Shown here one piece after another: positions 8,005-29,169 of a DNA stretch of 64,000 nt (its first letter is position 1; every line of letters starts with the position of its first letter). The notes beneath the pieces are model-generated. The model worked only from the letters and a program-made list of their open reading frames with translations, was not told where the DNA came from and did no database searches. Position numbers and translations under genes: made by a program. Source of the DNA: Archangium gephyra (GTDB lineage: Bacteria; Myxococcota; Myxococcia; Myxococcales; Myxococcaceae); NCBI RefSeq assembly GCF_001027285.1, contig NZ_CP011509.1, forward strand, positions 6,658,501 to 6,722,500, given 5' to 3'.

Positions 8005-9378
8005 TCAGGCCACGCCCTTGCCGCGCCGGGCGATCCGCTCGGCGAGCTCCGGAGCGGAGCGGGCCTCGGCCAGGACGGGATCCCGGGCGAGCTCCTCGTA
8101 GTCGTCGTAGCCCGCCGCCAGGGCGCGCTTGAGCCACTCGGAGGCCTGGGCCCCCTGGCCGGCGCGCGCATGATCCCGAGCGGCCTGGTACGCGTCCTCC
8201 GCGTTGCCCCCGGCCTCGAAGGCGCTCGCGTGGAGCGCCGCCGCCGCGCCGAAGTCAGCCCGGGCCACCGCCACGTCCGCCAGCAGCGTGTCCCGCTTCG
8301 CCGTCGCCTTCCAGGTGAACTCCCGCGCGGTGCGCTCGGCCTCGTCCAGCCGCTGCGCCTTCACCAGCAGGCGCACCGCCAGCGCGGTCAGCGCCTCCGT
8401 GCGCTCCTTCTCCAGCGCGGCGAGCGCGTGGGGCAGGGCGCGCTCGTGCAGCCCCGCCGCCTCGTACGCCATGGCCAGGCTGTAGGGCCGCGCGGCCTCG
8501 GGCGGCTGCACCTTCTCCAGGTGCGACACGGCGGCGCGGGCATTGCCCTCGGCCAGTGCCACCCAGGCGAGCAGATCCCTCGCCGCGTTGCTCTCCTCGC
8601 CCGGCTTCGCCGCCGACAGGGCCAGGTGTCCCAGCCGCGCCGCCTCGCTCTCATGGCCCGAGCGCAGCGCCTGCCAGCCGCGCGCCAGCGCATCCGGCTC
8701 GAGCTCCGCCACCTTCACCGGCTCCATCGGCTTGATGTCGCGCGTCACCTGGAGCGCCTGCCAGCACTGGTAGCCGAACATGCCGAACATGAAGCCGATG
8801 AAGAAGGCGCGGAAGTTCAGCGCCAGGGCCACCACGCAGCCCGCGGTGATGACGCCCAGCCACAGGGCGATGCGCTGCCGGGTGGGCCCCAGCACGCCGC
8901 GCGCGATGTGGCCTCCATCCAGCGGCGGCACCGGCAGCAGGTTGATGATGCCCCAGCCGAAGTTCACCCACATCAGGTCCATCAGGATGATCTGCCCCAT
9001 CAGGCTCTTGGGGGGCACGAGGATGTTGATGGCCAGCATCAACCCACCGAAGAGGAAGCCGGTGAGCGGACCGGCCGCGGAGACGGCCACGTCGCGCCAG
9101 CGGCTGAGCGCCCGGTCGAAGTACGTCAGGCCGCCGCCCATGTAGAGCCGGATGCCCGCGACGTCACAGCCCAGGCCCATGGCCATGAGCGCGTGCCCCA
9201 GCTCGTGCATCAGGATGGAGACGAAGACCACGCCGACCCAGGACACCACGGCCTGCCAGCTCCGGCTTCCGATCATGCCGAACATGACCGTCATCAGCCA
9301 GAAGCTCGGCTCGACGAGGACCGGGATCCGGCCGAGGTTGAACTGCCACGTGAAAGGAGGAGAGGGTTCCGTGCTCAT
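8005..9378 (-). CDS. Site-2 protease (M50) family metalloprotease with helical-repeat tail
   Basis: A 457-aa membrane protein. The zinc-binding HELGH is at residues 58-62 and the second M50 motif, LDGG, at 153-156; several transmembrane helices span about residues 20-205. The C-terminal half (about 210-457) is Ala-rich and alpha-helical in pairs, like TPR repeats. M50 enzymes cleave transmembrane substrates within the bilayer. It follows a lipoprotein gene by 12 bases and is the last gene of the minus-strand run beginning at 12062. Its substrate is unknown. Confidence 0.9.
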   Translation of the reverse strand: MSTEPSPPFTWQFNLGRIPVLVEPSFWLMTVMFGMIGSRSWQAVVSWVGVVFVSILMHELGHALMAMGLGCDVAGIRLYMGGGLTYFDRALSRWRDVAVSAAGPLTGFLFGGLMLAINILVPPKSLMGQIILMDLMWVNFGWGIINLLPVPPLDGGHIARGVLGPTRQRIALWLGVITAGCVVALALNFRAFFIGFMFGMFGYQCWQALQVTRDIKPMEPVKVAELEPDALARGWQALRSGHESEAARLGHLALSAAKPGEESNAARDLLAWVALAEGNARAAVSHLEKVQPPEAARPYSLAMAYEAAGLHERALPHALAALEKERTEALTALAVRLLVKAQRLDEAERTAREFTWKATAKRDTLLADVAVARADFGAAAALHASAFEAGGNAEDAYQAARDHARAGQGAQASEWLKRALAAGYDDYEELARDPVLAEARSAPELAERIARRGKGVA

Positions 9379-9390
9379 GAGTCTCGTGAA

Positions 9391-10053
9391 TCAGTTCTTC
9401 GAAATCACCCGGAAGGCGTTCGAGGTAGCGCTGTTGTTCTGATCGTCCTCGACGACGATCAGGTAGTTGTTGCCGGGCGTGTCGATGGTGATCTCCTGCT
9501 GGCAGATGCCCGCGGAGAAGGGGTTGCTCTGGTAGGTGTGGGTGGAGGCGCCGCCCTTGTAGAGGCTCACCCGTACCATGCCCTCGAAGCCATCGGCGTC
9601 CGGGCCGGCGGCGTGCAGGGTGATGGTGAAGGGCTCGTTGACGTACTGGTCGCCAATGGATTCGATCCAGAAGCCGACCGAGGGCTTCACCTCGTAGGCA
9701 TCCGGCAGGGTGGCCTCGCGCCCATCGCCCATCTTCACCCGGACGGCGTAGCGGCCCACCTGGAGCCCCGGGCCCACCCGGCCCTGGAACTGGCCATGGC
9801 CCAGGTACGTGTCCAGCGGCACCACCTGGGGGCCGAGCTCCAGCACCGGCTCATCGATCATCCGCACCTCCTGCTCGCCATAATTCACGTGGAAGCGGGG
9901 CTCCACGTCGAGCTGGACGGTGATGCTCTTGGACTCGTTGGTGACCTGCTCGCGGGGCGTGACGTCGAGGATCTGGAAGGCCTCCGCGGGAGGCGTCACG
10001 ACCGTCTCGCACGCACACAGCAGCGGCAGGAGAAGGGGAAGGAGCTTGTTCAT
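9391..10053 (-). CDS. Predicted lipoprotein, unknown function
   Basis: A 220-aa protein with a lipoprotein signal (MNKLLPLLLPLLCAC; the lipobox Cys is at about residue 13 or 15). The mature part is beta-rich with two Ig-like or IPT-like segments and no recognised catalytic motif. Its ATG overlaps the stop of the upstream gene in an ATGA, which indicates translational coupling, and the M50 protease gene follows 12 bases downstream. Likely anchored in the envelope. Confidence 0.75.
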   Translation of the reverse strand: MNKLLPLLLPLLCACETVVTPPAEAFQILDVTPREQVTNESKSITVQLDVEPRFHVNYGEQEVRMIDEPVLELGPQVVPLDTYLGHGQFQGRVGPGLQVGRYAVRVKMGDGREATLPDAYEVKPSVGFWIESIGDQYVNEPFTITLHAAGPDADGFEGMVRVSLYKGGASTHTYQSNPFSAGICQQEITIDTPGNNYLIVVEDDQNNSATSNAFRVISKN

Positions 10054-11449
10054 AGGACGTACCTCACGCCCAGGGACGCGGACAGGCCCCCGAGCTGTGC
10101 GTCGATCTGCTGGGCCTGGGCCGAGGCGTAGCTGCCGCGCAGCTCGAGCAGGGCGCTCACCGCTCCCAGGCGCCAGGCGGCCTGGGCCGCCAGGAAGCCC
10201 ATGAACGTGCTGCCCTGCTGGATGAGCGGCTCATCGAAGGAGGTGCTCGTCACCCGCTGGTCGTAATACAGGATGCCGGCTCCCGCTCGACCATGGAGGG
10301 AGAGAGGCCCCCGCTCGAACGCCAGCACCCGGACGGACCCCAGCAGGGGCAAGCCCACCACGCGCGAATTCAACACCGGCCCCTCGGCGCCCAGGCGGGG
10401 CTGGCTCATCACCTGGCGCAGCCCGCCTTCCACCTCCAGCGCGAGACGGCCTCCGAGCGGCGGCAGGCGGTAGCCCAGGCCGGCCGACACCAGGGGCCCG
10501 CGGTTGTCGCCTCCCGCGAAGAAGCCCCCGGCCATCAGGTGCAGGGACAGAAACCGCCAGCTCAGGTACTGGCTCCAGTCCACGGAGGGGGCGGGAGTCA
10601 CGGCGGGGGGTGCCACCACGGACGGCTCGGGGGCGGGACGACGGCCACGATGGGGGCCGCCACCGGCGCCATGACGCGCGCCGCGCCGGTGCGATCCTTG
10701 AGGTGGGCATCCACCACCACGGCTCTCGCACCGGCCTCCGGCTTCACGCGGTACACGCCCGGGCCCTGCTCCTCCACGGCGCCGCCCTGCACCTGGAGCT
10801 CCACCTCCGCACGGGGCACCAGCTCCTCGCCCAGCAGCGTCAGCCACCCGGTGCCGTCCACCGGGAACACGTCCGGGCTGAGCACCGCGACCAGGGGCCG
10901 CTCGGGAGGCACGTCGAGCGGGGTGGTGCGGCGCGTCTGCTGGCCCTTGGCGGTGGCGAACACGATGGCCTCGCGCACCCCGGGCGGCACCTCCACGGGC
11001 ACCTGGGCGCGGCCCTTGCGGTTGGTGGTCACCGGGCCGAAGCGCATGTCCGCCACCTGCACCACCACCTGGGCACCCGCGCCCACGTCCGTGGCCACGT
11101 CCAGCTCCGTGCGGCCCAGCAGGGGAATGCGCACGGTGGTGACTTCCGGCGGGCCCTCGGCCGCGTCCACCCAGAAGGCGAGCACGGCCAGCAGCGGGTA
11201 GCGGATGTCCGGAGGAATCCAGCGGTACGAATACACGCCCCGGGCGGTGGCGGGCAGCGGCATCAGGTTGCCCGTGGAGGCCACGGCCCGGAGCGGAGGC
11301 GTGCCGCGCGGCACCTTCACCTGCACCACCACCGCCTTGTCCCGGCCGAGCACCACCTGGGTGGGGGTGGCCGTCGCCGGGAAGGGCGCCGCCTCCACCA
11401 CCAGGGGCAGGGCGAGCATCAGCAGCAGTGGGAGGACCGGCGCGCGCAT
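10050..11449 (-). CDS. Secreted Ig-like/beta-barrel outer-membrane protein, frameshifted
   Basis: Two overlapping frames together encode one protein. The first (11449 to about 10630) has a signal peptide and beta-rich Ig-like repeats; the second (about 10635 to 10050) is a beta-barrel-like domain ending SLGVRYVL. Adding one C to the C5 run (plus-strand G5 at 10629-10633) joins them as VVPPPEPSVVAPPAV and gives 466 aa. This is either a sequencing error or a recent frameshift. The downstream lipoprotein overlaps its stop. Function unknown; likely an envelope protein whose extracellular domain precedes a membrane barrel. Confidence 0.65.
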
Positions 11450-11486
11450 GAAGGGGGCCTACCGTCCAGCCTCCCCGGCGTCTCTG

Positions 11487-12062
11487 TCAACCCTCGGCGG
11501 GGTTGCCCGGCGGGGAAGCGGCCTCTTCCGTTGTCTCAGAGAGTGGCTTGTCCGCTGGGCCCGTAGCTTTCGCGCTGGGCGGGCTGAAAGCCGGCTTCTC
11601 GGCCGGGGCCCCGCCGCGTCCGTGGACGAGCGTCTTCGTCTCGGACTTGAAGGTGATGTCCACCTTGTCCCCACGCACCGCCGTCACCAGCCCCAGCCCG
11701 AAGGTGGGATGCTGGATGACCTGATCCGGCTTGTAGGTGTCCTTGGGGCTGTAGCGGGGGGCGTTGGCGATGTCCTTGCCCGCCAGCTGCTCCTCGAAGG
11801 AGATGATGATCTTCTCCTCGGCCGTGGCCCGGGCCCGGGACGTCTTGGTGCCGCTGGTGGAGCCGCCGCTGGCGCGGGCCGCGGGGCTCGGCTTGTCGGT
11901 GGTGCCCGGTGCCGAGCGGAAGGCGTGGTCTCCGTTGCAGGTGTTGCACCGGACTCGAGCGATCTTCGTGCCCACCATCGCCAGGATGGTGTGGGCCAGC
12001 GTGAGCCGGCACCGGGTGCAGAACGCGTCGACCTCGCCGCCGACCTTGTGTTGGGTCGCCAT
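11487..12062 (-). CDS. Zinc-ribbon protein with UvrD-type C-terminal Tudor-like segment
   Basis: A 191-aa protein starting MATQHKVGGEVDAFC. The N-terminus has two CxxC pairs (FCTRC and RCNTC, about residues 15-45), a likely zinc ribbon. After a low-complexity Ser/Ala linker comes VIQHPTFGLGLVTAV, which resembles the small nucleic-acid/RNA-polymerase-binding Tudor-like domain at the C-terminus of UvrD/PcrA and the CarD region. This suggests a nucleic-acid or RNA polymerase contact. The frame extends to 12164, but the ATG at 12062 begins the conserved-looking part. The next gene starts 37 bases downstream. Confidence 0.7.
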   Translation of the reverse strand: MATQHKVGGEVDAFCTRCRLTLAHTILAMVGTKIARVRCNTCNGDHAFRSAPGTTDKPSPAARASGGSTSGTKTSRARATAEEKIIISFEEQLAGKDIANAPRYSPKDTYKPDQVIQHPTFGLGLVTAVRGDKVDITFKSETKTLVHGRGGAPAEKPAFSPPSAKATGPADKPLSETTEEAASPPGNPAEG

Positions 12063-12273
12063 GGGTGTGTGCTTCTCGCTTCTCTTTTTGAAGGGGAGGA
12101 AAAAGGGCGGCGGAACATAACGGCAAGCGCGCTCGGGAGGAACCCCTTTGTCGGGGCGTGTCACGACGGGGGGGCGAGTGCCTGGATGCCTGGGCTACCT
12201 GGAGGCGGAGGGGGGCTCTGGAGCCAGAGCGTTTGCTTGTTCCGGCTGGCGAGGCACGTAGAGTAGGGCCCAC

Positions 12274-13098
12274 GTGGCATCCGAAAACGCACAGAACGCC
12301 GAGCAACAGCCCGCGCAGCCCTCGCTCCTGACCCAGTCCATCGAGGGCGTGGGCCGCGGTGCCATCTCCGCGGTGGAGGAGCTGGGGCACCTGGCCACCC
12401 TCGGGGTGGAGGTGGTGCGCTGGGGGGTGCGCCGGCCGTATCGCTGGCAGAACCTCTTCTTCCAGCTGGACTTCGTGGGGGTGGGCAGCGTCTTCATCGT
12501 GCTGCTCACCGGCCTGTTCACCGGCATGGTGTTCGCCCACCAGTCCTCGCGGGCCTTCGAGATGTTCGACGCGCAGAGCCTCGTGGGCCCCACGGTGGCC
12601 CTCACCCTCACGCGCGAGCTGGCCCCCGTCTTCTCCGCGCTGATGGTCACCATGCGCGCCGGCTCCGCCATGTGCACCGAGCTGGGCACCATGCGCGTCA
12701 CCGAGCAGGTGGACGCCCTGGAGACCATGGCCGTCAACCCCATCCAGTACCTCCTGGTGCCCCGGGTGCTGGCTGGCCTCCTCATGGTGCCCCTGCTCAC
12801 GCTGCTCTTCGACACCTCGGGCATCTTCGGGGCCTACATCGTCTCGGTGGGCACCCAGGGCGTGTCCGCCGGTACCTTCATCAGCCGCACCCAGCAGTGG
12901 TTGGATCCCATCGACGTCTACGAGGGCCTCATCAAGGGCGCCGTCTTCGGCCTGGCGGTGGCGCTCGTGTGCTGCTTCAAGGGCTTCAACGCCACGGGCG
13001 GCGCCAAGGGCGTGGGCCAGGCCACCACCGAGGCCATGGTCTCCAGCGCCCTCTCCATCTTCATCCTCGACTTCATCGTCGGGGTGCTCCTGCACTGA
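12274..13098 (+). CDS. mlaE: MlaE-family lipid ABC transporter permease
   Basis: A 274-aa permease of the MlaE/YrbE type, which with MlaF and MlaD moves phospholipid between the inner and outer membranes. It shows the MlaE features: an amphipathic N-terminus, about five membrane helices, and the ELGTMRVTEQVDALETM coupling-helix region. Start is GTG at 12274. Its stop overlaps the ATG of the ATPase gene as TGATG. It is the first gene of an mlaE-mlaF-mlaD operon. No separate MlaB is present here. Confidence 0.93.
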   Translation: MASENAQNAEQQPAQPSLLTQSIEGVGRGAISAVEELGHLATLGVEVVRWGVRRPYRWQNLFFQLDFVGVGSVFIVLLTGLFTGMVFAHQSSRAFEMFDAQSLVGPTVALTLTRELAPVFSALMVTMRAGSAMCTELGTMRVTEQVDALETMAVNPIQYLLVPRVLAGLLMVPLLTLLFDTSGIFGAYIVSVGTQGVSAGTFISRTQQWLDPIDVYEGLIKGAVFGLAVALVCCFKGFNATGGAKGVGQATTEAMVSSALSIFILDFIVGVLLH

Positions 13099-13862
13099 TG
13101 GCCGATCCAAGCTCCCGGCCGATGATCGAGATCTCCGGCCTGCACAAGTCCTTCGGTGTGCACAAGGTCCTCACGGGGATCGATCTCGCCGTGCCCGCGG
13201 GCAGCACCTGCGTCATCCTCGGCGGCTCGGGCTCGGGCAAGACGGTGCTGATGAAGCACATGATCGGCCTGCTCAAGCCCGACGAGGGGCGGGTGGTCAT
13301 CGACGGCGAGGACATCGTCCCCATGGGCGCCCAGGAGCTGGAGCGGGTGCGCCACAAGTTCGGCATGGTGTTCCAGGCCGCCGCCCTCTTCGACTCCATG
13401 GACGTCTACGACAACGTGGCGTTCCCCCTGCGCGAGCACCGCGGCCTGTCCGAGGAGGAGATCCGCAAGCTGGTCCGCTCGAAGCTGGATCTCATGGGCC
13501 TGCCGCAGAGCGCCGAGCACAAGTTCCCGGCGGACCTGTCCGGCGGCATGCGCAAGCGCGTGGGCCTGGCGCGCGCCATCGTGATGAATCCGAAGATCGT
13601 CCTCTACGACGAGCCCACCACGGGGCTGGATCCCATCACCACCGACTACGTGGACGAGATGATCCTCGCGGCCCAGCGGGAGCTGGGCATTACGAGCGTG
13701 GTCATCAGCCACGACATCGCCTCGGCCTTCAACATCGCCGACCAGATCGCCTTCCTCAACAAGGGCGTCATCCTGGAGCAGGGGCCCCCGGAGCAGCTAC
13801 GCTCCTCCCAGCACCCCGCCGTGAAGGTCTTCCTCCAGACCTGGTTCGGAAAGAATGATTAG
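13098..13862 (+). CDS. mlaF: MlaF-family ABC transporter ATP-binding protein
   Basis: A 254-aa ATPase. Walker A GGSGSGKT is at residues 42-49, signature LSGGM at 147-151, and Walker B LYDEP at 169-173, with the LxxDEP-TTGLDP extension typical of MlaF. It powers the MlaFEDB phospholipid transporter at the inner membrane. The start ATG shares one base with the mlaE stop, so the two are translationally coupled. The mlaD-like gene begins 12 bases after its stop. Confidence 0.95.
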   Translation: MADPSSRPMIEISGLHKSFGVHKVLTGIDLAVPAGSTCVILGGSGSGKTVLMKHMIGLLKPDEGRVVIDGEDIVPMGAQELERVRHKFGMVFQAAALFDSMDVYDNVAFPLREHRGLSEEEIRKLVRSKLDLMGLPQSAEHKFPADLSGGMRKRVGLARAIVMNPKIVLYDEPTTGLDPITTDYVDEMILAAQRELGITSVVISHDIASAFNIADQIAFLNKGVILEQGPPEQLRSSQHPAVKVFLQTWFGKND

Positions 13863-13874
13863 GAGTCACACCCG

Positions 13875-15399
13875 GTGAAGAAGCTCGTCACACCGTTCCG
13901 AGTAGGCCTGCTGGTGCTCGTCGCCGGAGGGTTCCTCTTTGGCTTCATCCTGTTCACCCGCAAGGGGGGCTGGGTGAGGACGAGGCCCTCCAGGCCTACG
14001 CCTACTTCCGGGACGCCTCGGGCCTGGGGCCCAAGAGCCGCATCCAGATCGCCGGTCTCCCCGTGGGCGAGGTGGAGAGCATCAAGCTGGAGGGCACGCG
14101 CGCCAGGGTGACGGTGCGCATCCGCCGCGACATCCCCATGTTCGAGGACGCCACGCTGGCCAAGCGCTCGGAGTCCCTGCTGGGTGACTACCTGCTGGAT
14201 CTCAACCCCGGCACGGAGATGGCGCCCCCCTGAAGGAGGGCGGGGAGATCCGCCGGGTCATCGACGTGCAGGGCATGGAGGCCGTGTTCGCCTCGCTCAG
14301 TCAGATCACCTCGGACATCCAGCAGGTGACGGGCGCGCTGCGTGACGTGCTCGGCGGCGACAAGGGCGCCGGCTCCATGGAGCGGATCGTGGAGAACCTG
14401 GTGCGCGTGTCGGACGCGGTGGATCTGACGGTGCGCGCCAGCTCCGAGCGCCTGGACGCCATCCTGCGCAACGTGGAGGGCGTGAGCTCGGACGTGCGGG
14501 GCATCACCGCCTCCAACGAGCAGAGCGTCAACAACATCGTCCACAACATCGAGTTCATCACCCGCGACACCCGCGAGGTGCTGTCGATGGTGAACAAGCT
14601 GGTGGGCAGCGGCGGGGAAGGGGACCTGAAGGACAGCGTGGCCAGCCTCAAGCAGACGATGAGCCGGCTGGACAGAACGCTGGCCAACCTGGAGGACGTC
14701 ACCACCAAGGTGAAGAACGGCGAGGGCGCCGTGGGCACGCTGCTCACCGACAAGCGCCTGGGCCAGAAGCTGTCCGAGTCCGTGGAGGACCTCTCCGACT
14801 TCTCCTCCAAGCTCACCGGCCTCCAGACGGAAGTGGGCCTGCAGGCCACCTACCTGATGGAGCAGGGCTCCTCGAAGAACATGCTGACGCTGCGGCTGGC
14901 TCCCAAGCCGGACAAGTACTACCTGCTGGAGCTGGTGGATGATCCGCGCGGCACCACCGAGACGCAGTACGTCCAGGCCAACCCGCCCTCCTCGGGCGAG
15001 CCCGTGGTGCAGAAGCAGACCATCACCAAGGAGTCCTTCAAGTTCAGCGCCCAGTTCGCCAAGCGCTACTACTTCACCACGCTGCGCTTCGGCATCATCG
15101 AGTCCACCGGCGGCGTGGGCGCGGACTTCCACTTCTTCAAGGACCACCTGACGCTGAAGCTGGACGCCTTCAACTTCTCCGTGGCCGAGCTGCGCTACCC
15201 CCGCATCCGCGCCTCGCTCAGGGCCCAGGCGTTCGACCGGCTCTTCGTCGTGGCCGGCATGGACGACGTCCTCAATGACCCCCGGCGCGACACCAATACC
15301 CGCCGGATGCTCGCCGGCCGGGACTTCTTCTTCGGTGGCGGCATCTACTTCACGGACGATGACCTGAAGGCCATGCTGCCCGTGCTTCCCACGCCCTGA
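13875..15399 (+). CDS. mlaD: MlaD-family (MCE domain) lipid transport protein, two frameshifts
   Basis: The MCE-domain partner of MlaE/MlaF. GTG at 13875 follows a clear AGGAG (13861-13865); the N-terminus MKKLVTPFRVGLLVLVAGG is a membrane anchor. As printed the frame breaks twice: in G6 (13964-13969) and in C6 (14225-14230). Restoring one base to each gives a continuous 508-aa protein with an MCE segment (GLGPKSRIQIAGLPVGEV) and a long helical C-terminal half, as in MCE proteins that form a periplasmic lipid tunnel. The two breaks are of the homopolymer-deletion kind, so the gene is probably intact in the organism. Confidence 0.8.
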
Positions 15400-15457
15400 G
15401 TGTGGGTCCGGCACCAGATGGCTTGACCTGACCGGGTCAAAAGTCGTACCTCGCCAC

Positions 15458-15488
15458 GGCACGGGCGGTCCCCTGGGAGCCCCGTGCC
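15458..15488 (+). terminator. Possible terminator hairpin after the mla operon
   Basis: GGCACGGG (15458-15465) pairs with CCCGTGCC (15481-15488) around a 15-base loop. It lies after mlaD and 33 bases before the next start. No T-tract follows, so intrinsic termination is uncertain. Confidence 0.35.
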
Positions 15489-15521
15489 TGGTTCTCGAAG
15501 GCCCCTCTCCCTGGAAGCCCC

Positions 15522-16445
15522 ATGTCTCTTCTCGTCGTTGGCTCGGTCGCGCTGGATTCGGTGGAAACCCCCTTCGGTCTGAAGGAGGACGTCCTCGGCG
15601 GCTCCGCCACCTACTTCTCCACCTCGGCCTCCTTCTTCGCCCCCACCCAGGTGGTGGCCGTCGTCGGTGAGGACTTCCCCCAGGCCCACCTGGACTTCCT
15701 CAAGGCCCGGGGCGTGGACCTCGAGGGCGTCACCCGGGAGAAGGGCCGCACCTTCCGGTGGAAGGGCCGCTACGGCTTCCAGCTCAACGAGGCCGAGACG
15801 CTCGACACCCAGCTCAACGTCTTCCAGTCCTTCTCGCCCCGTCTGCCCGAGAAGTACCGCGACGCCCAGTACGTCTTCCTCGGCAACATCCACCCCGAGC
15901 TCCAGTCCCAGGTGGTGGATCAGGTGAAGGCGCCCAAGCTGGTGGCCGCCGACACCATGAACTTCTGGATCAACGGCAGCCGGCCCGCGCTCCTCAAGAC
16001 GCTCAAGCGCGTCAACCTGCTCTTCGTCAACGACGGCGAGGCGCGCCAGCTCACCGGCGAGCACAACATCGTCCGCGCCGCCCGCGCCATCCTCGACATG
16101 GGCCCCCAGCGCGTGGTGATCAAGCGCGGCGAGTACGGCGCGCTCCTCTTCGAGAAGGAGCACACCTTCGCCTGCCCGGCCATGCCCATCGCCGACGTGT
16201 TCGATCCCACCGGCGCCGGGGACACCTTCGCCGGCGGCTTCATGGGCACGCTCGCCATCGCCAGCCAGGTGAACACCGAGACGCTGCGCCGCGCCATGGT
16301 CATGGGCAGCGTCATGGCCTCCTTCACCGTGGAGAAGTTCAGCCTCGAGCGCCTGCGCGAGGTGACCCGCTCGGAGATCCGCGCCCGCTTCTCCGACTTC
16401 AAGCGCCTCACCCACTTCGAGGACCTCGGCCCCCTGGAGGGCTGA
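15522..16445 (+). CDS. PfkB-family carbohydrate kinase
   Basis: A 307-aa ribokinase-fold kinase. It has the N-terminal GSVALDSVETP strand, a Gly-rich GGSATYFS segment, and the C-terminal PfkB signature DPTGAGDTFAGG (about residues 228-239), whose Asp is the catalytic base. It phosphorylates a sugar or nucleoside. Sequences of this length with NxFQSFSP segments occur as stand-alone sugar kinases; the substrate cannot be assigned. Its neighbours give no pathway clue. Confidence 0.9.
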   Translation: MSLLVVGSVALDSVETPFGLKEDVLGGSATYFSTSASFFAPTQVVAVVGEDFPQAHLDFLKARGVDLEGVTREKGRTFRWKGRYGFQLNEAETLDTQLNVFQSFSPRLPEKYRDAQYVFLGNIHPELQSQVVDQVKAPKLVAADTMNFWINGSRPALLKTLKRVNLLFVNDGEARQLTGEHNIVRAARAILDMGPQRVVIKRGEYGALLFEKEHTFACPAMPIADVFDPTGAGDTFAGGFMGTLAIASQVNTETLRRAMVMGSVMASFTVEKFSLERLREVTRSEIRARFSDFKRLTHFEDLGPLEG

Positions 16446-20693: not shown

Positions 20694-20743
20694 AAACCGG
20701 CGGCACCCTTGAGAATTCAAGGGTTTAGAAGGGCCGCCGGTTT
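20694..20743 (+). terminator. Composite hairpin after hisS
   Basis: AAACCGGCGGC (20694-20704) pairs with GCCGCCGGTTT (20733-20743), an 11-base perfect stem. Nested inside is a second hairpin, ACCCTTGA (20705-20712) with TCAAGGGT (20717-20724). It lies just after the hisS stop and upstream of the promoter of the next operon, so it probably separates the two transcripts. Confidence 0.6.
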
Positions 20744-20770
20744 GATGTGTTGGGACGGTGACCTTACAAT
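20742..20770 (+). promoter_or_regulatory. Sigma70-like promoter of the peptidase-PqqD-HprK operon
   Basis: TTGATG (20742-20747), 17 bases, then TACAAT (20765-20770): four of six and five of six consensus matches with ideal spacing. The start codon at 20783 would follow the likely transcription start by only about six bases, so the first gene may be read leaderless; no Shine-Dalgarno is visible. Confidence 0.5.
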
Positions 20771-20782
20771 CCCGTTCCAGTC

Positions 20783-21193
20783 ATGCCGCCAGACTGGACG
20801 CAGGGACGTCGAGACGAGGGCCCGTGCTGGATTCCCATCGAGGGAGACAGCATGTGGCCCTCGTTGCGTTCGGGGGACGTGGCGCGGGTGGAGCCGTGGG
20901 CCGGGGAGCTGCGCCCGGGCGAGGTGGTGCTCGCGCGCTTCGCGCATGCCCTGGTGGTGCACCGCGTGCGGCGGTGTGATGGGGACACGTGCGTGCTGCT
21001 CGGGGACAACGCCCGGGCGGAGGATCCCCCGCTGCCGCGCGAGCGGGTGCTGGGACGGGTGGGGCTGGTGCGCCGGGGCGGCGAGGTGCTCGAGCCGGGC
21101 CGGTGGGACCGGGGGCCGAGGCGCTGGGGCCGCTGGCGCGTGGAGTGGAAGCGTGGGCTGGCGGCGCTGCTCGGAAGACGGAGGCGCGCATGA
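20783..21193 (+). CDS. S24/S26-type peptidase (soluble, Ser-His dyad)
   Basis: A 136-aa small peptidase of the LexA/signal-peptidase fold. The nucleophile motif is EGDSMWPSL with Ser23, followed by GDVARVEPW, HRV with His60, and GDN at 74-76. His in place of the usual bacterial Lys is the pattern of archaeal/ER SEC11 signal peptidases. No membrane anchor is visible, so it should be cytoplasmic, unlike export signal peptidases. It overlaps the PqqD-like gene (ATGA). In this operon it is a candidate leader peptidase for the small peptide at 25081; that role is inferred. Confidence 0.75.
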   Translation: MPPDWTQGRRDEGPCWIPIEGDSMWPSLRSGDVARVEPWAGELRPGEVVLARFAHALVVHRVRRCDGDTCVLLGDNARAEDPPLPRERVLGRVGLVRRGGEVLEPGRWDRGPRRWGRWRVEWKRGLAALLGRRRRA

Positions 21194-21480
21194 GCTTCCG
21201 CCCGGACAGCATCCCCCGCAGGCGCGAGGGCGCGGATGGCCAGCGCTTCGGCGCGGACTTCGTGGTGCTGGATGCGGAGGGGCGGATGCTGCGGGGGCTC
21301 AACGAGACCGCGGCGCGCGTCTGGGACCTGAGTGACGGCAAGCGCACCGCGCGGGAGATCGCCGCCCTGGTGGCGCACGAGTACGGCGTGGATGTGGAGC
21401 GGGTGCTCGAGGACTGCCTGCGCTTCCTCGAGCGGCTCGCGGGACATGGACTGTTGGACGCGGAGGAGGTGCTTCGATGA
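21190..21480 (+). CDS. PqqD-like (RiPP recognition element) protein
   Basis: A 96-aa stand-alone PqqD-family protein. Such proteins bind leader peptides of ribosomally made, modified peptides through a winged-helix fold. Visible family features are the hydrophobic FVVLDAEGRMLRGLNETAARVW strand/helix and the LERLAGHGLL tail. It overlaps both neighbours by four bases (ATGA at either end), so it is tightly coupled to the peptidase and lipoprotein genes. No radical-SAM or PQQ synthesis gene is nearby, so it does not act in PQQ synthesis. Confidence 0.85.
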   Translation: MSFRPDSIPRRREGADGQRFGADFVVLDAEGRMLRGLNETAARVWDLSDGKRTAREIAALVAHEYGVDVERVLEDCLRFLERLAGHGLLDAEEVLR

Positions 21481-21983
21481 GAGCGCTCGTGATGGCGTCG
21501 GTGGTCCTGTGGCTGTCCGCCTGTGACGAGGGCCGTGCTCCTCCAGAGCCTCCGGGTGGGGGAGGGGAGACGCCCGCGGAGCCCGGGCCCGTGGTGCCCG
21601 CCGAGGTGTCGTGGAATGGGATCTCTCCGCCGGTGAGGCCCACGCCGCCACTGCCTCCGCTGGTGGGCTCGGCGGACGTCACCTACGTGCCCGAGGGCGC
21701 GCGCGGCATGTCGGAGGTGACGGCGGTGGAGGTGCGGCTGCGCGTGAGTGGCATCGTCGGCTCGGCATCGGTGGACGCGGAGCTGCTGGCCCCGGGCCCC
21801 GCCGCGTACGAGCGCCACACCCGGAAGGTGGAGGCCGTGCCCACCGAGCAGCGCGAGCTCGTCTTCAGCATGCCCGTGGCGGGGACGAACATCCCCATCC
21901 ACGGCCTGAGCGGGAGCTGGGAGGCGCGCTTCTTCGTCGATGGCGTGCCCCTCACCACCGCCACCTTCACCCTGGATCGCTGA
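21477..21983 (+). CDS. Predicted lipoprotein, unknown function
   Basis: A 168-aa protein with a lipoprotein signal (VVLWLSAC, lipobox Cys at about residue 16), a Pro/Gly-rich linker, and a beta-rich domain that looks Ig-like. Its start overlaps the PqqD-like gene and it lies 12 bases before the large propeller gene, so it probably belongs to the same product pathway. Function unknown. Confidence 0.7.
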   Translation: MRALVMASVVLWLSACDEGRAPPEPPGGGGETPAEPGPVVPAEVSWNGISPPVRPTPPLPPLVGSADVTYVPEGARGMSEVTAVEVRLRVSGIVGSASVDAELLAPGPAAYERHTRKVEAVPTEQRELVFSMPVAGTNIPIHGLSGSWEARFFVDGVPLTTATFTLDR

Positions 21984-21995
21984 GGAGGCCCCGCC

Positions 21996-24900
21996 ATGAA
22001 CGCACGCCTGTTCGCGCTCCTGACCCTGCTGCTGCCCGCCGCCGCGCTCGCCCAGAACGCGTGGACCGTCACCCCGGTGGAGGGCTCGGCGGTGATGGGG
22101 GAGATCTCCTCGCTCGTCTTCGAGGTCCGCAACGCCTCCACCAGCACCCGGCCCCTCAACGAGCTCAGCCTCGCCGTCGACGGTGCCGCCTATGACGTGG
22201 ATGGCGGTGACGCTCCGGCGGGCTGGACGGTGAGCACCATCGATCGCAAGGAGCGCCGCATCACCTACCGGGCGACGGGCTCCTGCACCCCCGGGCCCCT
22301 GGGGCTCGCGCCGGGAGCGTCCGCGCGCTTCACCTTGCGGCTCGTGGGACTCGCGGCCAATGCCGACACCACCGATGCACTGGTGGGAGGGAACAATCCC
22401 ACGAAGTCGAGCATGGCCCTGGACACGTGCCCCGGCGGCGTCACGTTCACGGGCGACCCGGCGCTGGCCCGCTGGAAGCGCGTGGGCCTGTCCGCCACCC
22501 TCACGGCCCTGCCGCGCACCCTTCAGCTCGGGAGCGACGTCACGGTGCAGCTCCTCGTGGTGAACCGCTCGCTGGTGAACCAGGGGGGCATCACCCCGAG
22601 TGGCCCGGCCGTGGTGGGCAGCGCACGCTTCGACACGGTGGTGTCGGCGTTCTCTCCGGCCTCGCTCTCCCTCGCGCCCGGAGCCACCGGGAGCTTCACC
22701 GCGAGGCTGCGGTCCACGCTGGAGGGGACCTCTGTCTTCCAGGCCTCGGCGGGCAACGGCACGGTGAGCACCGCGCTGACCTCCTCCCTGCAGGTGAACG
22801 TGAGCAGCTTCCCGGCGCTCGCCGAGGTGCTTCCCACCAACATCATCACGGGCGATACGGTGACGCTCCGGCTCACCGTGAGCAACCCGTCCACCGTCAA
22901 CTACCGGGACGTGGTGCCCCGGACGCCCGTCTTCCTCGGCACCGCGGTGCCCACGCTCGTGAGCGGCCCCACGCCCGCGAAGTCCACGACGCTCAACGCC
23001 GGCACGTCCGTCAGCTTCGTCTGGAAGTACAAGCTGGACGGGCCCGTGGGTTCCTCCTTCCAGTTCGAGGCCCAGGCGGACGCCACGCGCGCGGGCGTCC
23101 CCCTCTCCACCAGCCGGGTGCTCTCGGGGCTGGGGCGGATCGTGGAGCACCGGCTCTTCATCGAGCCCGCTTCCGTCATCGGCGGCGTCACGAATCGCTC
23201 GCTCCGCTACGTCGTCTACAACGGCGGCACGGTGGAGATCCGCAAGGTGAAGCTGCTCACGCCCGACACCACCTTCTTCAAGGCGTCGGCCACCCCCTTC
23301 GCCAGCGACACCAGCGGGTGGACGGCCGTCGCCACCACCAGCAACCCGAGGGGCTATGAGTGGACGGTCCCCGCCGGGCAGTCCGGCATCACCTCGGGCC
23401 AGCAGCGCGGCTTCACCCTCGACTACGCCACCCTCGGCGCCGTCACCCGGGATACGGCCTTCCTCCACCAGATGGAGCTCACGCTGGCCGATGGTTCCAC
23501 CGTCTTCCGCGTGGACGCGCCCGTCACCCTCTTCGTCAACCGCGTGGTGCCCGAGGTCGAGTCCCTGGTGGCGATCGCCGGGCAGAACCGCAACACGCTG
23601 GTGTGGACCAACCCCTCTGATCATGACGGGGTGCTCGTGCTGCGCGCCGTGGGCGCCGCCCCCAACACCGCTCCCGAGCCGGGCCGGCGGTACGTGGCGG
23701 GCGAGACGCTCGGCAACGCGAAGGTGGTGTACTCGGACGAGGTGAGCGTGGCCTCCACCCTCGAGGACTCCGGGCTCTCCAATGGCACGGCCTACGTCTA
23801 CCGGGTCCACAACCACGACACGCTGTACCGGTACTCGCCCGGCAACGCGCCGCAGTCGCTCGGGCTGAAGTCCACGCCCACCAGCCGCGGCGCCGGCCAG
23901 CCGCTCTGGTGCTACAGCGTGGGCTTCTCCACGTTGCAGCAGCCCGTCACCGAGCTCGGCGTGGGCATCTTCAGCTCCAACACCTCGGGTCGCGTGACGG
24001 CCAACCTGACGAACACGGCCACGCCCGTGCTGGATGGCAACGAGCGCTGGCGGCCCGTGCAGCTCCAGGGCGCCGTGCAGAGCCGCTTCCCCATCGTCCC
24101 GCTGTCCGGCCGATCCGGGCAGTACATCCTCACCGGCGACCAGGCGGGCTACACCCAGGCCATCCGCACCGACACCGGGGAGCTCCTCTGGCGCTCCACC
24201 ACGCCGCTCGGCACCATCCAGTCCTTCCCGGTGGCGCAACTCCACGACACCACCGCCACCAACGCGGCCTACAAGGCGGCCTTCCCCGGGAAGGACCTGG
24301 CCTTCTTCGCCACCCGTCTGAGCACGGGCACCGACAACAAGGTCGTGGCGCTCGATGCCGCTACCGGCGCCCCCGTGTGGACGTACGCCCCGGGGGACCT
24401 CGGAATGGTGAGCGGCGGCTTGTTGATCGACTACACGTACAACCGGCTGTACGTGGGCGCCCGCTCCAATGGCGGCGCACTGGCCTCGCTGCGCATCCTG
24501 GACTCCCTCACCGGCGCCGAGCTGGCCCGGCTGTCGCTCGGGGATATCGATCACGGTCTCGTGCGCTACGGCTCGGCGACGCCCCTGGCGCTCGTGACGA
24601 ACAGCGATGGCACCGTGTACGGCGTCGACATGGTGGGCATGAAGGTCTCCTGGAGCGCGGCCGTGGCGAGCCGTCCCTCGGCCTCGGTGCCCGCGTTCTC
24701 CCAGTTCGCCCGTCCGGTGAATGGAGGCTTCGTCGTGAGCATCCTGGGCGCCACCGACGCCGAGGGCAGGGTGGAGCGCTGGAGCGTCACCACCAGCACC
24801 TCGGGCACCACGGTGACGAAGCTCTGGTCCACTCCCATTCCCAGCCCGTCCGGCTCCTTCTCGTTCACGAGCGGCGGCGTGCAGCGGCTCTACGTCGGCG

Positions 24901-25073
24901 GCAAGGACGAGAAGCTGCACGAGCTGGACATCAACACCGGCGTGGACGGCAAGCAGCTCTCGCTGCCCGGCGCGCTGGCCATCGGCACGCCCACGGTGGA
25001 CAGCACCGTGTCGCGCCTCCACGTGGGCACCCAGGATGGCCGCATCTGCGCCTTCCCGGTGCCGTTCCCCTGA
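21996..25073 (+). CDS. Large secreted Ig-like/PQQ-type beta-propeller protein
   Basis: A 1025-aa exported protein with the signal peptide MNARLFALLTLLLPAAALA. Residues about 20-520 are repeated beta-sandwich modules of the CARDB or DUF11 kind; 520-620 look like an Fn3 module; 640-1020 have repeated segments such as VALDAATGAPVWTY and LHVGTQDGRICAF, as in PQQ-type/Kelch-like beta-propellers (eight-bladed in PQQ enzymes). No PQQ-binding active-site residues could be confirmed, so a structural or binding role is more likely. It sits 12 bases after the lipoprotein and seven bases before the small peptide gene. Confidence 0.75.
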   Translation: MNARLFALLTLLLPAAALAQNAWTVTPVEGSAVMGEISSLVFEVRNASTSTRPLNELSLAVDGAAYDVDGGDAPAGWTVSTIDRKERRITYRATGSCTPGPLGLAPGASARFTLRLVGLAANADTTDALVGGNNPTKSSMALDTCPGGVTFTGDPALARWKRVGLSATLTALPRTLQLGSDVTVQLLVVNRSLVNQGGITPSGPAVVGSARFDTVVSAFSPASLSLAPGATGSFTARLRSTLEGTSVFQASAGNGTVSTALTSSLQVNVSSFPALAEVLPTNIITGDTVTLRLTVSNPSTVNYRDVVPRTPVFLGTAVPTLVSGPTPAKSTTLNAGTSVSFVWKYKLDGPVGSSFQFEAQADATRAGVPLSTSRVLSGLGRIVEHRLFIEPASVIGGVTNRSLRYVVYNGGTVEIRKVKLLTPDTTFFKASATPFASDTSGWTAVATTSNPRGYEWTVPAGQSGITSGQQRGFTLDYATLGAVTRDTAFLHQMELTLADGSTVFRVDAPVTLFVNRVVPEVESLVAIAGQNRNTLVWTNPSDHDGVLVLRAVGAAPNTAPEPGRRYVAGETLGNAKVVYSDEVSVASTLEDSGLSNGTAYVYRVHNHDTLYRYSPGNAPQSLGLKSTPTSRGAGQPLWCYSVGFSTLQQPVTELGVGIFSSNTSGRVTANLTNTATPVLDGNERWRPVQLQGAVQSRFPIVPLSGRSGQYILTGDQAGYTQAIRTDTGELLWRSTTPLGTIQSFPVAQLHDTTATNAAYKAAFPGKDLAFFATRLSTGTDNKVVALDAATGAPVWTYAPGDLGMVSGGLLIDYTYNRLYVGARSNGGALASLRILDSLTGAELARLSLGDIDHGLVRYGSATPLALVTNSDGTVYGVDMVGMKVSWSAAVASRPSASVPAFSQFARPVNGGFVVSILGATDAEGRVERWSVTTSTSGTTVTKLWSTPIPSPSGSFSFTSGGVQRLYVGGKDEKLHELDINTGVDGKQLSLPGALAIGTPTVDSTVSRLHVGTQDGRICAFPVPFP

Positions 25074-25080
25074 GACCTCG

Positions 25081-25278
25081 ATGACGCGCGGCCACGAGCC
25101 AGCTTCCGGGGGAAACCCGCCCACGCCCGGCTCGAAGGAGCCGGTGACGGCCCCGCGTGCGCGCGTCTATGAGCCGCCCGCGGTGCTGTGGGAGCAGCCC
25201 TTCGTCGCGCTCGCGCAGGTGTCCTTCCACGACGACTACGGCTGCGACATTCCGGGCTCGTGCTCGGACCTGCCGTGA
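25081..25278 (+). CDS. Small candidate RiPP precursor with lasso-type leader motif
   Basis: A 65-aa peptide from ATG 25081, ending GCDIPGSCSDLP. A weaker alternative is GTG 25144 (44 aa) with AAGGAG three bases before it. The segment YEPPAVLWEQPF fits the lasso leader motif YxxPxLxxxGxF at Tyr1, Pro4, position 6 (Val) and Phe12; the Gly at 10 is Gln. The short C-terminal part has two Cys four residues apart, several acidic residues and Ser. It lies between the propeller and kinase genes with seven- and one-base gaps. Modification and function are inferred; no cyclase is encoded nearby. Confidence 0.7.
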   Translation: MTRGHEPASGGNPPTPGSKEPVTAPRARVYEPPAVLWEQPFVALAQVSFHDDYGCDIPGSCSDLP

Positions 25279-25279
25279 G

Positions 25280-26086
25280 GTGCTTCCGTCCCATGGGGTG
25301 ACGCTCTCGCTGGCGGGTTGGACGGTGGCCTTCGAGTGCGAGGACGCGGCGCTGGAGGAGTCGCTCGTCCGGGCCTTCCCGGCGTTCCGCACCGAGGCGC
25401 CCGCGCAGGCACGGATCCGCGTGCTGCGTCCGGCGGCTCCGTTGCCTGTGTCCACCGTGCGCTCCCTGCCCGAGCCCCGTCCCGTCCCCGGTGGCGGCCT
25501 GCGGGTGGAGGGTGAGGACTACGTGGCGGACATCGCCCCCGAGGGCCGGAGCGCCACGGTGACGGGCGAGGGCCGCTTCCCGGTGGACACGGTGTTGAAG
25601 GTGATGCTCGCGGGCGAGCTGGCGCGTCGCGGGGGCCTGCTGGTGCACGGCGTGGCGGTGGAGCACGAGGGCCGGGCCGCGCTGTGGACGGGGCACTCCG
25701 GGGCGGGGAAGAGCACCCTGGGCGCGCTGTGGGCGAAGGCCGGGGGCACGGTGCTGACGGACGAGCTGGTGGCGGTCTGGCCCGAGGCGGACGGCTGGCG
25801 GGCCGCGGGGACGCCGTGGAACGTGGGAGTTCCTCGCGAGGCCTCGCTGCGCGTGGTGGGGCTGCTGGGTTGGGACACGGCCTCGCGCTGGGAGCCCGTG
25901 GGCGCGGGGGAGGTGGCCCGGGTGCTGCTGCTCAACGCGCTCCTGCCCGAGGCCTCCGCCTCCGGACGCCGTTACCTGCTGGGCACGGCGAGCCGTCTAC
26001 TCGCGGGTGTGGAGACGGCCCGGCTCGTCTTCGCGCGGGATGCCTCCGCCGCGGACGTGGTGCGCGCCCGGCTGGGAGCGGAGTGA
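25280..26086 (+). CDS. HprK-like kinase domain protein
   Basis: A 268-aa protein whose C-terminal half resembles HPr serine kinase/phosphatase: the P-loop is GHSGAGKST near residue 138, followed by LTDELVAV with the expected acidic residue. HprK proteins without a sugar phosphotransferase partner occur in RiPP clusters, where some phosphorylate the peptide's C-terminal residue. No HPr or PTS gene is in the window. The frame is open upstream, but GTG 25280, one base after the peptide's stop, gives a compact protein. A GTG at 25298 is also possible. Confidence 0.8.
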   Translation: MLPSHGVTLSLAGWTVAFECEDAALEESLVRAFPAFRTEAPAQARIRVLRPAAPLPVSTVRSLPEPRPVPGGGLRVEGEDYVADIAPEGRSATVTGEGRFPVDTVLKVMLAGELARRGGLLVHGVAVEHEGRAALWTGHSGAGKSTLGALWAKAGGTVLTDELVAVWPEADGWRAAGTPWNVGVPREASLRVVGLLGWDTASRWEPVGAGEVARVLLLNALLPEASASGRRYLLGTASRLLAGVETARLVFARDASAADVVRARLGAE

Positions 26087-26169: not shown

Positions 26170-27057
26170 TCAGCTCGGGCCTGAAGGACGCGGCAACTGG
26201 TTCAACAAGGTGACGAGCCGGGCCGCGCCCTCGATGAACTCGAGTTGGAAGCGGCGTCCGTCCACCACGCTCACCCTCACCTGGGTGGGGGAGAGGAGCT
26301 GGACGCCCTTCCTGGCCGGGATGGCATGGAGCGGAAGGTGGATGGGTTTTCGTCCCGTGGGCTTCCAGACCAACCGCCTGGGGGTGAGCCAGAACCACCC
26401 GGAGCTCAGGTATTGGCTCAGGAGCGCGAAGAGGGGGAGGAGCATCCACAGCAGGCCCCACCCGGAGGGACTGGACAGCCAGACGATGGCGAGAAGGACC
26501 GCCAGGGCCTCGAGCTTCGCATCCCGCAGGTATCCGCCCCAGTGCAGTACCTTCTCCTCGGAGGAGACAGCGGGAGGGAGCAGGTTCTGCTCGAGCCGAG
26601 CGAGGTTCTCCGCGAGCCGGATCCCCTCGGTCATCCACTGGGAATCCCCGCTGTCGAGGCGCCTGTCCGTGAGCACCTCCAGCCGGGTCCGGAGCCTCTT
26701 GATCTTCCGGGCCAGCTCGAGTGCTGGCTCCAGGCCCTCGGATGCGCCTTCCACCTGGAGCCGCTGATGGAGGCGCGTCAGGGCCTCGACGATCGCGGGC
26801 TCGTCACGGACCACCTCGCGCAGCGGTGCGAGTCTCGCTTGCAGCAGGTGCTCCCATTGCCTCCGGCGCAGGGCCTTCTCCAGGAGCGCGTAGCGCCCGA
26901 GCGCGGCTTCCAGCACCTCGATTCCGCCTTCGAGCTGGCGCCGGAGGTCCGCGCTCACGGGGAACGGAATGCGGGAAGCCCGTACTTCCGGGGCGGGAGG
27001 AACAGGAGGGGCGGTGCCCTTCGGCGGAGCCGTGGGCTTGAGTGCCTCCTCGGACAT
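26170..27057 (-). CDS. Membrane protein with PH-like domain, paralogous to upstream gene
   Basis: A 295-aa protein. An N-terminal helical, coiled-coil-like region (about 30-150, PVSADLRRQLEGG onward) is followed by two membrane helices (about 190-225) and a PH-like segment with GWFWLTPRRLVWKP. It aligns along most of its length with residues about 370-665 of the protein encoded just upstream, including DLRRQLEG versus DVRRQLEG. The two genes look like a tandem duplication. Function unknown. Confidence 0.75.
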   Translation of the reverse strand: MSEEALKPTAPPKGTAPPVPPAPEVRASRIPFPVSADLRRQLEGGIEVLEAALGRYALLEKALRRRQWEHLLQARLAPLREVVRDEPAIVEALTRLHQRLQVEGASEGLEPALELARKIKRLRTRLEVLTDRRLDSGDSQWMTEGIRLAENLARLEQNLLPPAVSSEEKVLHWGGYLRDAKLEALAVLLAIVWLSSPSGWGLLWMLLPLFALLSQYLSSGWFWLTPRRLVWKPTGRKPIHLPLHAIPARKGVQLLSPTQVRVSVVDGRRFQLEFIEGAARLVTLLNQLPRPSGPS

Positions 27058-27171: not shown

Positions 27172-29169
27172 TCAGGGGAGGGACGAGCGTTCAGTCCGGA
27201 GCGGCGCTACCGCCCTCCTCAACTGCCTGGCGAAGCGTCTGGCCCGGGAGATGAACTGGAGGTGGAGGATGTGCCCGTCCGCCAGGACCACCTTCACGCC
27301 CTTGGGGTAGCGGAAACCGCTGCCATCGGGGTGACGGATGTCGTGCAGGGAAACCTGGAGGGGATCCCCTCGGGTGGGCAGCCAGATCAGCCGGCTCTCG
27401 GTGAGCCAGAAACGCCCGGAGCCGCGGTACTGGAACCAGAAACAGAGGGCGGTGAACACCATCCATGCGCCCCAGAACCCAAAGCCGGGTGCCCCCGCCT
27501 CGCCGCGAATTCCCAGGGGCGTGGCGCAGTGGGTGACGGAGAAACCGAGCAGCAGCGCCATCCCTGGCAGGGACAGGGACGGAGAGAACCTCCCGGAGCA
27601 CAGCAGCTTCTCTCCGGGCGCGAGCGGAGCGGGAAGGGACTGGACGACGCTCCGTTCGAGCCGTTCGAGAGGGGTCTCCGAGGGGCCGAGATGGTGGCGC
27701 GTGAGTGCTCCCACGCGGGCCCGGAGTCCCTCCACCTCGTGGGCGAGTACGAGTGCCGGCTCGGTTTCGCTCCATCCCTCGGAACGAGCGCGATGATGAA
27801 GACGCTCCAGTGCCTCCACGAGCGCGGGCTCCTGGCGGAGGGTCTCTCGCAGCATCTCGAGCCGTGGCCGCAGGTGGAGCTTCCACTTCGGCTTCTGGAG
27901 CGCTTCTTCCAGGGCGCGGTAATGCGCATGGGCGGTCTCCAGCACTTCGAGCCTGCCCTCCAACTGGCGGCGGACATCCTCGGACGACAGGTGGACTTGC
28001 TGCTTCTCCTCGTGTGGCGGTGAGGCTTGGAGCCATGGGGCCGGCCCGGAGGTGGACGGGTCGGAGACCAGGAGTGCCTGGTATCGTGGCAGGGCCTGGG
28101 CCTGGGCCATCGGGAGATGTGGCTGCACCTGGAACGGAATGAGCTGGAGGAAGGTTCTCTTGTCACCCTTGAACTTCACTTCGAACCGCAGGCGCCAGCT
28201 CAGCTCACTGCTCCTGAGGATGAAGCTGGTGGGCGCGGTGGAGGGGAGGGCGATCTTCACGAGAGGCAGCTCGAGGAGCTCGCGCTTGAGCAACGCCCGG
28301 TTCGTGCACGTCAGGAGGGTTCCCATGTGCACGACCCTCTCTTTCGTGCTGCTCCCAGTGCGGACCCCGTAGTAGTAGGGCCCGGAGCCGTATCTCTTGA
28401 TCCTCGCCAGCTCGACGTACTCCATCGAGACCGAGAGCTCATGCTCAGGCAGCTCCTGGTCGGGCCGCAGGTGGATGCGCAGTCCGGTGCTTCCTCCCGG
28501 TGCCACGGACCTCGGATCGATCCACAGGTTGCCCAGGGAACGCGCCCAGACGGTCTCGCGGCTGTGCCGGCGATAGAGGACCGCACCTCCGACGCTGATG
28601 ATGCCGAGCAGAACGAAGAGAACGGGGTCTTGCTCGAAGAGAAAGCGCCTCAGGACGAAGAGCAGGGCGAGCACGGCCACGAGGGGGAGGTCCCCCATGT
28701 CATTGCTGGGGGCGGTCACCTCCAGGCCGTGCCAGGCGTCCGGATGCCCGGTGGCGATAGCGATGGGGACGGGAGACGCCATCTCGGGGGCCTCCAGGAA
28801 GAAGGGCACGTCCACGTGGGGACACGGGTCCTGGTACCCGGAGACGACGGCCTCGGCCCTCAGACGCCAGTCCACGGACACGAGTTGCCCATGGTAGGTG
28901 AGGGGCTCGCTCGGGGCCTCGAGACGGAAGGTGTAGTGCAGCTCCTGGCCGGCAATCCACTCTTCCCCTTCGTTCAAGGTGAGCAGGCACTCGTCGGGAC
29001 TCTTGTCGGAGTCGCCCCAGCCTCGAGCCTGCCACCGCCAGCTCAGGGTCAGTTGCCTGCACCGGCACCGCTCGAGGACCTTCACCACGACGCTGCCGGT
29101 GATGAGCTCTCCAGGCGCATAGGTGCGATCGCTCTTGTCCAGTGTGAGCTGGAGCTCACATTTCGCCAT
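27172..29169 (-). CDS. Arrestin-like domain protein fused to membrane/PH-like module
   Basis: A 665-aa protein. The N-terminus (about 1-130, MAKCELQLTLDKSDRTYAPGE) resembles the arrestin/Spo0M fold in its strand pattern and the YAPGELITGSVVV loop. Two membrane helices lie near 155-200, a beta-rich part follows, and the C-terminal ~295 residues are the paralogue of the gene downstream, again ending with two helices and GRFWLTESRLIWLP. The start ATG at 29169 gives a compact N-terminus; the frame continues upstream but runs into the divergent miaA region. Function unknown. Confidence 0.75.
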   Translation of the reverse strand: MAKCELQLTLDKSDRTYAPGELITGSVVVKVLERCRCRQLTLSWRWQARGWGDSDKSPDECLLTLNEGEEWIAGQELHYTFRLEAPSEPLTYHGQLVSVDWRLRAEAVVSGYQDPCPHVDVPFFLEAPEMASPVPIAIATGHPDAWHGLEVTAPSNDMGDLPLVAVLALLFVLRRFLFEQDPVLFVLLGIISVGGAVLYRRHSRETVWARSLGNLWIDPRSVAPGGSTGLRIHLRPDQELPEHELSVSMEYVELARIKRYGSGPYYYGVRTGSSTKERVVHMGTLLTCTNRALLKRELLELPLVKIALPSTAPTSFILRSSELSWRLRFEVKFKGDKRTFLQLIPFQVQPHLPMAQAQALPRYQALLVSDPSTSGPAPWLQASPPHEEKQQVHLSSEDVRRQLEGRLEVLETAHAHYRALEEALQKPKWKLHLRPRLEMLRETLRQEPALVEALERLHHRARSEGWSETEPALVLAHEVEGLRARVGALTRHHLGPSETPLERLERSVVQSLPAPLAPGEKLLCSGRFSPSLSLPGMALLLGFSVTHCATPLGIRGEAGAPGFGFWGAWMVFTALCFWFQYRGSGRFWLTESRLIWLPTRGDPLQVSLHDIRHPDGSGFRYPKGVKVVLADGHILHLQFISRARRFARQLRRAVAPLRTERSSLP

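Follow-up and report, generated by a model that had tools for sequence, protein, structure and literature searches.

A conserved Myxococcaceae gene for a probable LPP-like phosphorylated peptide precursor, encoded beside a secreted propeller protein

Introduction

Linear Polyphosphorylated Peptides (LPP; LppA/K/B/S) were described from Bacillota in a 2026 paper and are said to be restricted to that phylum, patchy in distribution and of unknown role (PMC13381572). Their precursors share the motif YxxPxVLxHQxIxFETxxS and are cleaved after position 16 (Y = 1), the peptidase being the Ser/His/Asp enzyme SpI; S3 (position 19) is the phosphorylation site, and an S3T variant is not phosphorylated by LppK. 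The recognition element (RRE) LppB contacts the leader Pro and Tyr through N33 and D70, LPP RREs form a monophyletic Bacillota clade, and the clusters include an NTP transferase and an MsbA-like transporter. HprK-like kinases also occur in phosphorylated lasso clusters (PMC13381572).

Here we analyse a small gene in a 64,000-nucleotide stretch (the window) of the Archangium gephyra genome, which is assembled as a single contig of 12,489,432 bp. A first-pass annotation had read the product as a lasso peptide precursor. We propose instead that it probably gives rise to an LPP-like RiPP, linear and phosphorylated: the precursor would be captured by an RRE, phosphorylated on Ser and cleaved, and its core would act together with a secreted propeller protein.

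Results

The peptide gene and its operon

The reading frame has the residues and boundaries first described for it (Table 1). Seven bases separate its ATG from the stop of the propeller gene, and the kinase GTG follows one base past its own stop, again as annotated. The translation bears out the motif reading of Tyr at 1, Pro at 4, a hydrophobic residue (Val) at 6 and Phe at 12 with Gln at 10, and the two Cys with an IPGS-type spacer are seen in the C-terminal tail C-DIPGS-C. The start, left unsettled between ATG 25081 and GTG 25144, now favours the former on homologue comparison, because in G005 a stop codon lies in frame immediately 5' of the matching ATG, and neither G005 nor G080 has a counterpart of GTG 25144.

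Table 1. Features of the peptide locus (window coordinates)
Feature	Position	Strand	Description
Sigma-70-like promoter match	20742..20770	+	TTGATG-17-TACAAT; sole match of the region; 12 nt 5' of the first gene
S24/S26 signal-peptidase-like protein	20783..21193	+	136 aa; Ser23/His60/Asp81, archaeal or ER type; predicted leader peptidase
PqqD-family protein, discrete RRE	21190..21480	+	PF05402 (2.6e-17)
Small putative lipoprotein	21477..21983	+	168 aa; lipobox LSAC
Secreted protein	21996..25073	+	1025 aa; signal peptide, Ig-like beta-sandwich domains, C-terminal BamB/PQQ_2-type beta-propeller
LPP-like precursor peptide	25081..25278	+	65 aa; translation MTRGHEPASGGNPPTPGSKEPVTAPRARVYEPPAVLWEQPFVALAQVSFHDDYGCDIPGSCSDLP
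Parts of the precursor			leader motif YEPPAVLWEQPF, aa 30-41; predicted cleavage after ALA (aa 43-45); conserved Ser48; Cys55, Cys61
HprK-like kinase	25280..26086	+	268 aa; P-loop GHSGAGKST, LTDE, GTPW
14-bp inverted repeat, 1-nt loop	26089..26117		directly after the kinase stop; no T run; possible operon end

The six genes from peptidase to kinase are joined by 4-nt overlaps or gaps of 1-12 nt. ATGA overlaps link the genes on the upstream side (peptidase/RRE at 21190-21193, RRE/lipoprotein at 21477-21480), and the region 20783-26086 therefore reads as one operon. A strong hairpin at 20694-20743, with an outer stem of 11 bp and an inner one of 8 bp, stands between hisS and the promoter-like site and is a probable hisS terminator. 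On the other side, two minus-strand genes without a Pfam match (26170-27057 and 27191-28036) lie between the kinase and miaA in the host genome, and in G080 miaA stands directly 3' of the kinase. Among the compared loci of the main group that reach far enough, the place of the operon between psd-hisS and miaA is kept across genera. This constant place points to vertical inheritance, and the comparisons indicate a single-copy, slowly evolving system at one chromosomal site.

Conservation and selection

Protein and profile searches recovered a homologue of the peptide in 54 of 96 Myxococcaceae genomes, including Archangium, Corallococcus, Citreicoccus, Pyxidicoccus and Myxococcus (M. xanthus among them). 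Because these homologues, with E values down to 1e-24, occupy the same place, the frame is confirmed as a real gene and not a chance one. Conservation, selection and synteny likewise rule out a sequencing or annotation artefact as its origin. The pairing with an HprK-like kinase holds in 53 of the 54 genomes (counted at E below 1e-20), and that with the propeller in all 54.

The 36 distinct peptides, two of them from families other than Myxococcaceae, share the block YxPPA[IV]LWEQxFVALAQxS or near variants (also given as YxPPA[IV]LWEQPFVALAQxS), followed by a short core that commonly reads C-x-IPGESE-C-x-P. Homologue alignment thus upholds both the leader [Y/W]xxPx[hydrophobic], as read by PqqD-like recognition elements in RiPP-type precursors, and the Cys residues, of which there are exactly two in 34/36. 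Position 10 of the motif is Q, E or H, never Gly. Residues -3 to -1 are ALA in 32/36, and core position +3 is Ser in 33/36 and Thr in two distant members. Ala45 and Ser48 are two of seven invariant columns in a 17-sequence alignment made before the comparison with LPP (PMC13381572). The 19-residue segment from Y1 to S19 is under purifying selection (pS 0.40, pN 0.16 over the 36 sequences), and the N-terminal 25 residues of the peptide are variable. The peptide matches no Pfam or NCBIfam precursor family, and a PDB search with its profile returned an affibody match alone, attributed to chance.

Predicted maturation enzymes

The predicted leader peptidase matches PF00717 (5.8e-11) and keeps its Ser, His and Asp in every aligned system-1 copy. 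It shares family and triad with the Ni-SOD maturation protease and archaeal signal peptidase I (TIGR02754, TIGR02228), but it scores below their cut-offs, shows no membrane segment and is encoded with a RiPP set. The RRE has no close fit among the named PqqD subfamilies. In the alignment, its Asn38 and Asp75 fall opposite LppB N33 and D70, a pair that is common to other RREs and so is not specific to LPP. Its match to the solved LppB (9x8z) is weak (E 0.008), the best PDB match being the lasso RRE TbiB1 (E 2e-4). A tblastn search of LppB against plasmids gave no match, and no Bacillota LPP cluster was reached this way.

The kinase retains GGLLVH, GxSGxGKST, TDE and GTPW. Its AlphaFold2 model (pLDDT 93.5) has an HprK/PEPCK fold, with Foldseek matches to PEPCK and HPr kinase, and kinase activity is predicted. 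Kinase and PqqD protein are similar to those of the HprK_rel_A/B, SynChlorMet and GeoRSP PqqD/kinase/radical SAM cassettes (NCBIfam), and some Myxococcota loci likewise have a radical SAM/SPASM enzyme; every score, however, is far under the family cut-offs, and precursors and secreted partners differ.

The putative secreted partners

In its model, the propeller protein has Ig-like domains followed by a BamB-like propeller (mean pLDDT 82; TM about 0.7 to BamB by target length), and homologues of the lipoprotein go with it at most loci. We rejected a PQQ-like cofactor for the propeller, there being no modifying oxidase and the best fold match being BamB. At one locus (L068 8551-11575, G027) apparent frameshifts or a stop interrupt the propeller gene, which could be sequencing error; peptide and kinase are intact there.

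Comparison with LPP

With Tyr30 as position 1, Ala45 falls at position 16 and Ser48 at position 19 (core +3). Y1, P4, V6, L7, Q10 and S19 match the LPP motif, while H9, I12, F14, E15 and T16 differ; outside the RRE-binding motif, the LPP consensus is matched at three of eight positions (permutation p about 0.012). In addition to this precursor form (YxxPx[VI]L..Q, Ser at +3, predicted cleavage 16 residues from Tyr), the locus shares with LPP an SpI-like Ser-His-Asp peptidase, a discrete RRE with putative Asn/Asp leader contacts, an HprK-like kinase and the lack of a cyclase. In enzyme set and in Ser/cleavage register, the system therefore resembles LPP and not lasso systems.

The window system belongs to another phylum, and neither an NTP transferase nor an MsbA-like exporter is found among the operon genes or the scanned flanking genes. 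Its core is short and carries two Cys, a pair not described for LPP (PMC13381572), and its predicted cleavage site is ALA instead of FET. Its inheritance appears vertical, whereas LPP are patchy, and it is fixed to a secreted propeller and a lipoprotein. We use "LPP-like" rather than "LPP" because of the missing transferase and exporter, the vertical inheritance and the propeller tie; the name is not meant to claim common descent.

Related sets in Myxococcota

The host genome carries a second, paralogous set at 10.69 Mb (L137, G000:C1:10684000-10702000, 8984-16152) that comprises a PqqD protein, a lipoprotein of 1962 aa that carries Ig and FG-GAP repeats, a 50-aa peptide of the YRPP...C...C type (YRPPAIRSEKILVANLFAS...CEPNC) and an HprK-like kinase. 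In relatives, the kinase has an S24-like gene behind it as well (L141, L143). Other Myxococcota families have a [YW]xxPx[IV]...C...C peptide either behind the propeller or ahead of the kinase (G165, G166, G167, G106), and in G128 an RRE, a one-Cys relative, the propeller, the lipoprotein and the kinase are consecutive. Across 77 loci (7104 small ORFs), the pattern [YW]..P.[IV].{9,22}C.{2,12}C has 41 matches against 3.9 expected by residue shuffling, a count that serves as a position control and not as an independent survey, since the loci were picked for these genes and are partly redundant. All 41 adjoin a propeller, giant lipoprotein, RRE or kinase gene except L149 1429-1875.

Some families of the phylum have a radical SAM/SPASM enzyme after the kinase (L138 8523-14465, L139 4534-11969, L158 3779-6098, L160 4942-6804). 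A radical-SAM-modified peptide was rejected for the host: orthologues score 1e-167 to 1e-177 in G128, G106, G166 and G167, and the host has generic matches alone (best 6e-26). Six-Cys peptides of the type LLC.SG.P..C...CCD...C...C.GG also occur behind a propeller (L146 5896-6090, L147 8250-8444, L148 2478-2681, L156 1585-1776), with no RRE or kinase nearby.

Discussion

We propose that the PqqD-type RRE binds the YxPPA[IV] leader motif, that the HprK-like kinase phosphorylates the near-invariant Ser48, and that the signal-peptidase-like protein cleaves after Ala45, which would free a linear core of roughly 15-20 residues. Analogy supports these steps one by one, and they are the most likely course of maturation. 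The two core Cys would probably be disulfide-bonded once outside the cytoplasm, and the released core may work at the cell envelope alongside two other products of the operon, the secreted Ig/propeller protein and the lipoprotein, a partnership that we infer from genomics. No export route for the core is visible at the operon. Several observations count against this path: the limited match to LPP outside the RRE-binding motif, the missing transferase and exporter, the Cys pair, and the Thr at +3 in two distant members, a residue that LppK did not phosphorylate in the S3T variant. In addition, G007, G010, G011 and G095 have a divergent six-Cys peptide behind the propeller and no local RRE or kinase.

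The lasso label first given to the peptide has some grounds. The leader residues Y1, P4, hydrophobic 6 and F12 are present, the PqqD protein resembles lasso RREs, and the RRE, the HprK-like kinase and the [Y/W]xxP motif are all held in common with paeninodin-type phosphorylated lasso peptides. The [Y/W]xxPx[hydrophobic] RRE-binding motif, however, is common to several RiPP families, Gly10 is missing from all homologues, and the core has no conserved Asp or Glu at ring position 7-9; Archangium forms lack the Glu seen in the Myxococcus core (IPGES). The operon encodes neither a B2 peptidase nor an Asn-synthetase-like macrolactam cyclase, and PF13471 and PF00733 find weak, far-off matches alone in the host genome. 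We reject the lasso assignment because these two enzymes are absent, and regard it as highly improbable.

Two other readings concern what the peptide does. In the first, it would be a small partner of the propeller, either structural or catalytic, and would resemble the cross-linked gamma subunit of quinohemoprotein amine dehydrogenase, with kinase and RRE serving assembly. The propeller-peptide link is the most persistent of all and extends to genomes of other families, and a radical SAM/SPASM enzyme adjoins the kinase in G128, G106, G166 and G167; yet the small size of the predicted core, the missing radical SAM orthologue in the Myxococcaceae tested, the resemblance of the propeller to BamB rather than to a dehydrogenase, and the separation of peptide and propeller in G050 and G049 make this unlikely. 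That the modified peptide is an intercellular or envelope signal, or an antimicrobial, with the propeller only co-transcribed, would suit maturation genes of the LPP kind and the lack of a visible dedicated target. Single copy, slow evolution and vertical inheritance at one chromosomal place are unlike patchy LPP and typical bacteriocins, however, and together with the unbroken propeller association they make such a role quite unlikely. An LPP-like precursor with a core acting beside the propeller thus remains our preferred reading.

More broadly, and tentatively, the Myxococcota sets could form a deep family of phosphopeptide systems. Their RRE, HprK-like kinase and signal-peptidase-like protease, joined in some lineages by a radical SAM enzyme, would mature a short two-Cys or Cys-rich peptide that a secreted Ig/propeller envelope protein needs as one of its working parts; the peptide would be a conserved cellular component and not a secondary metabolite.

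LPP have been held to be Bacillota-only, and myxobacteria appear to have a relative that is single-copy, passed on vertically and tied to a fixed secreted partner. As M. xanthus, a genetic model, carries the gene (L122), the role of such phosphopeptides becomes testable by gene deletion. Overall, the locus suggests that peptide maturation by an RRE and an HprK-like kinase may serve an envelope protein rather than an antibiotic.
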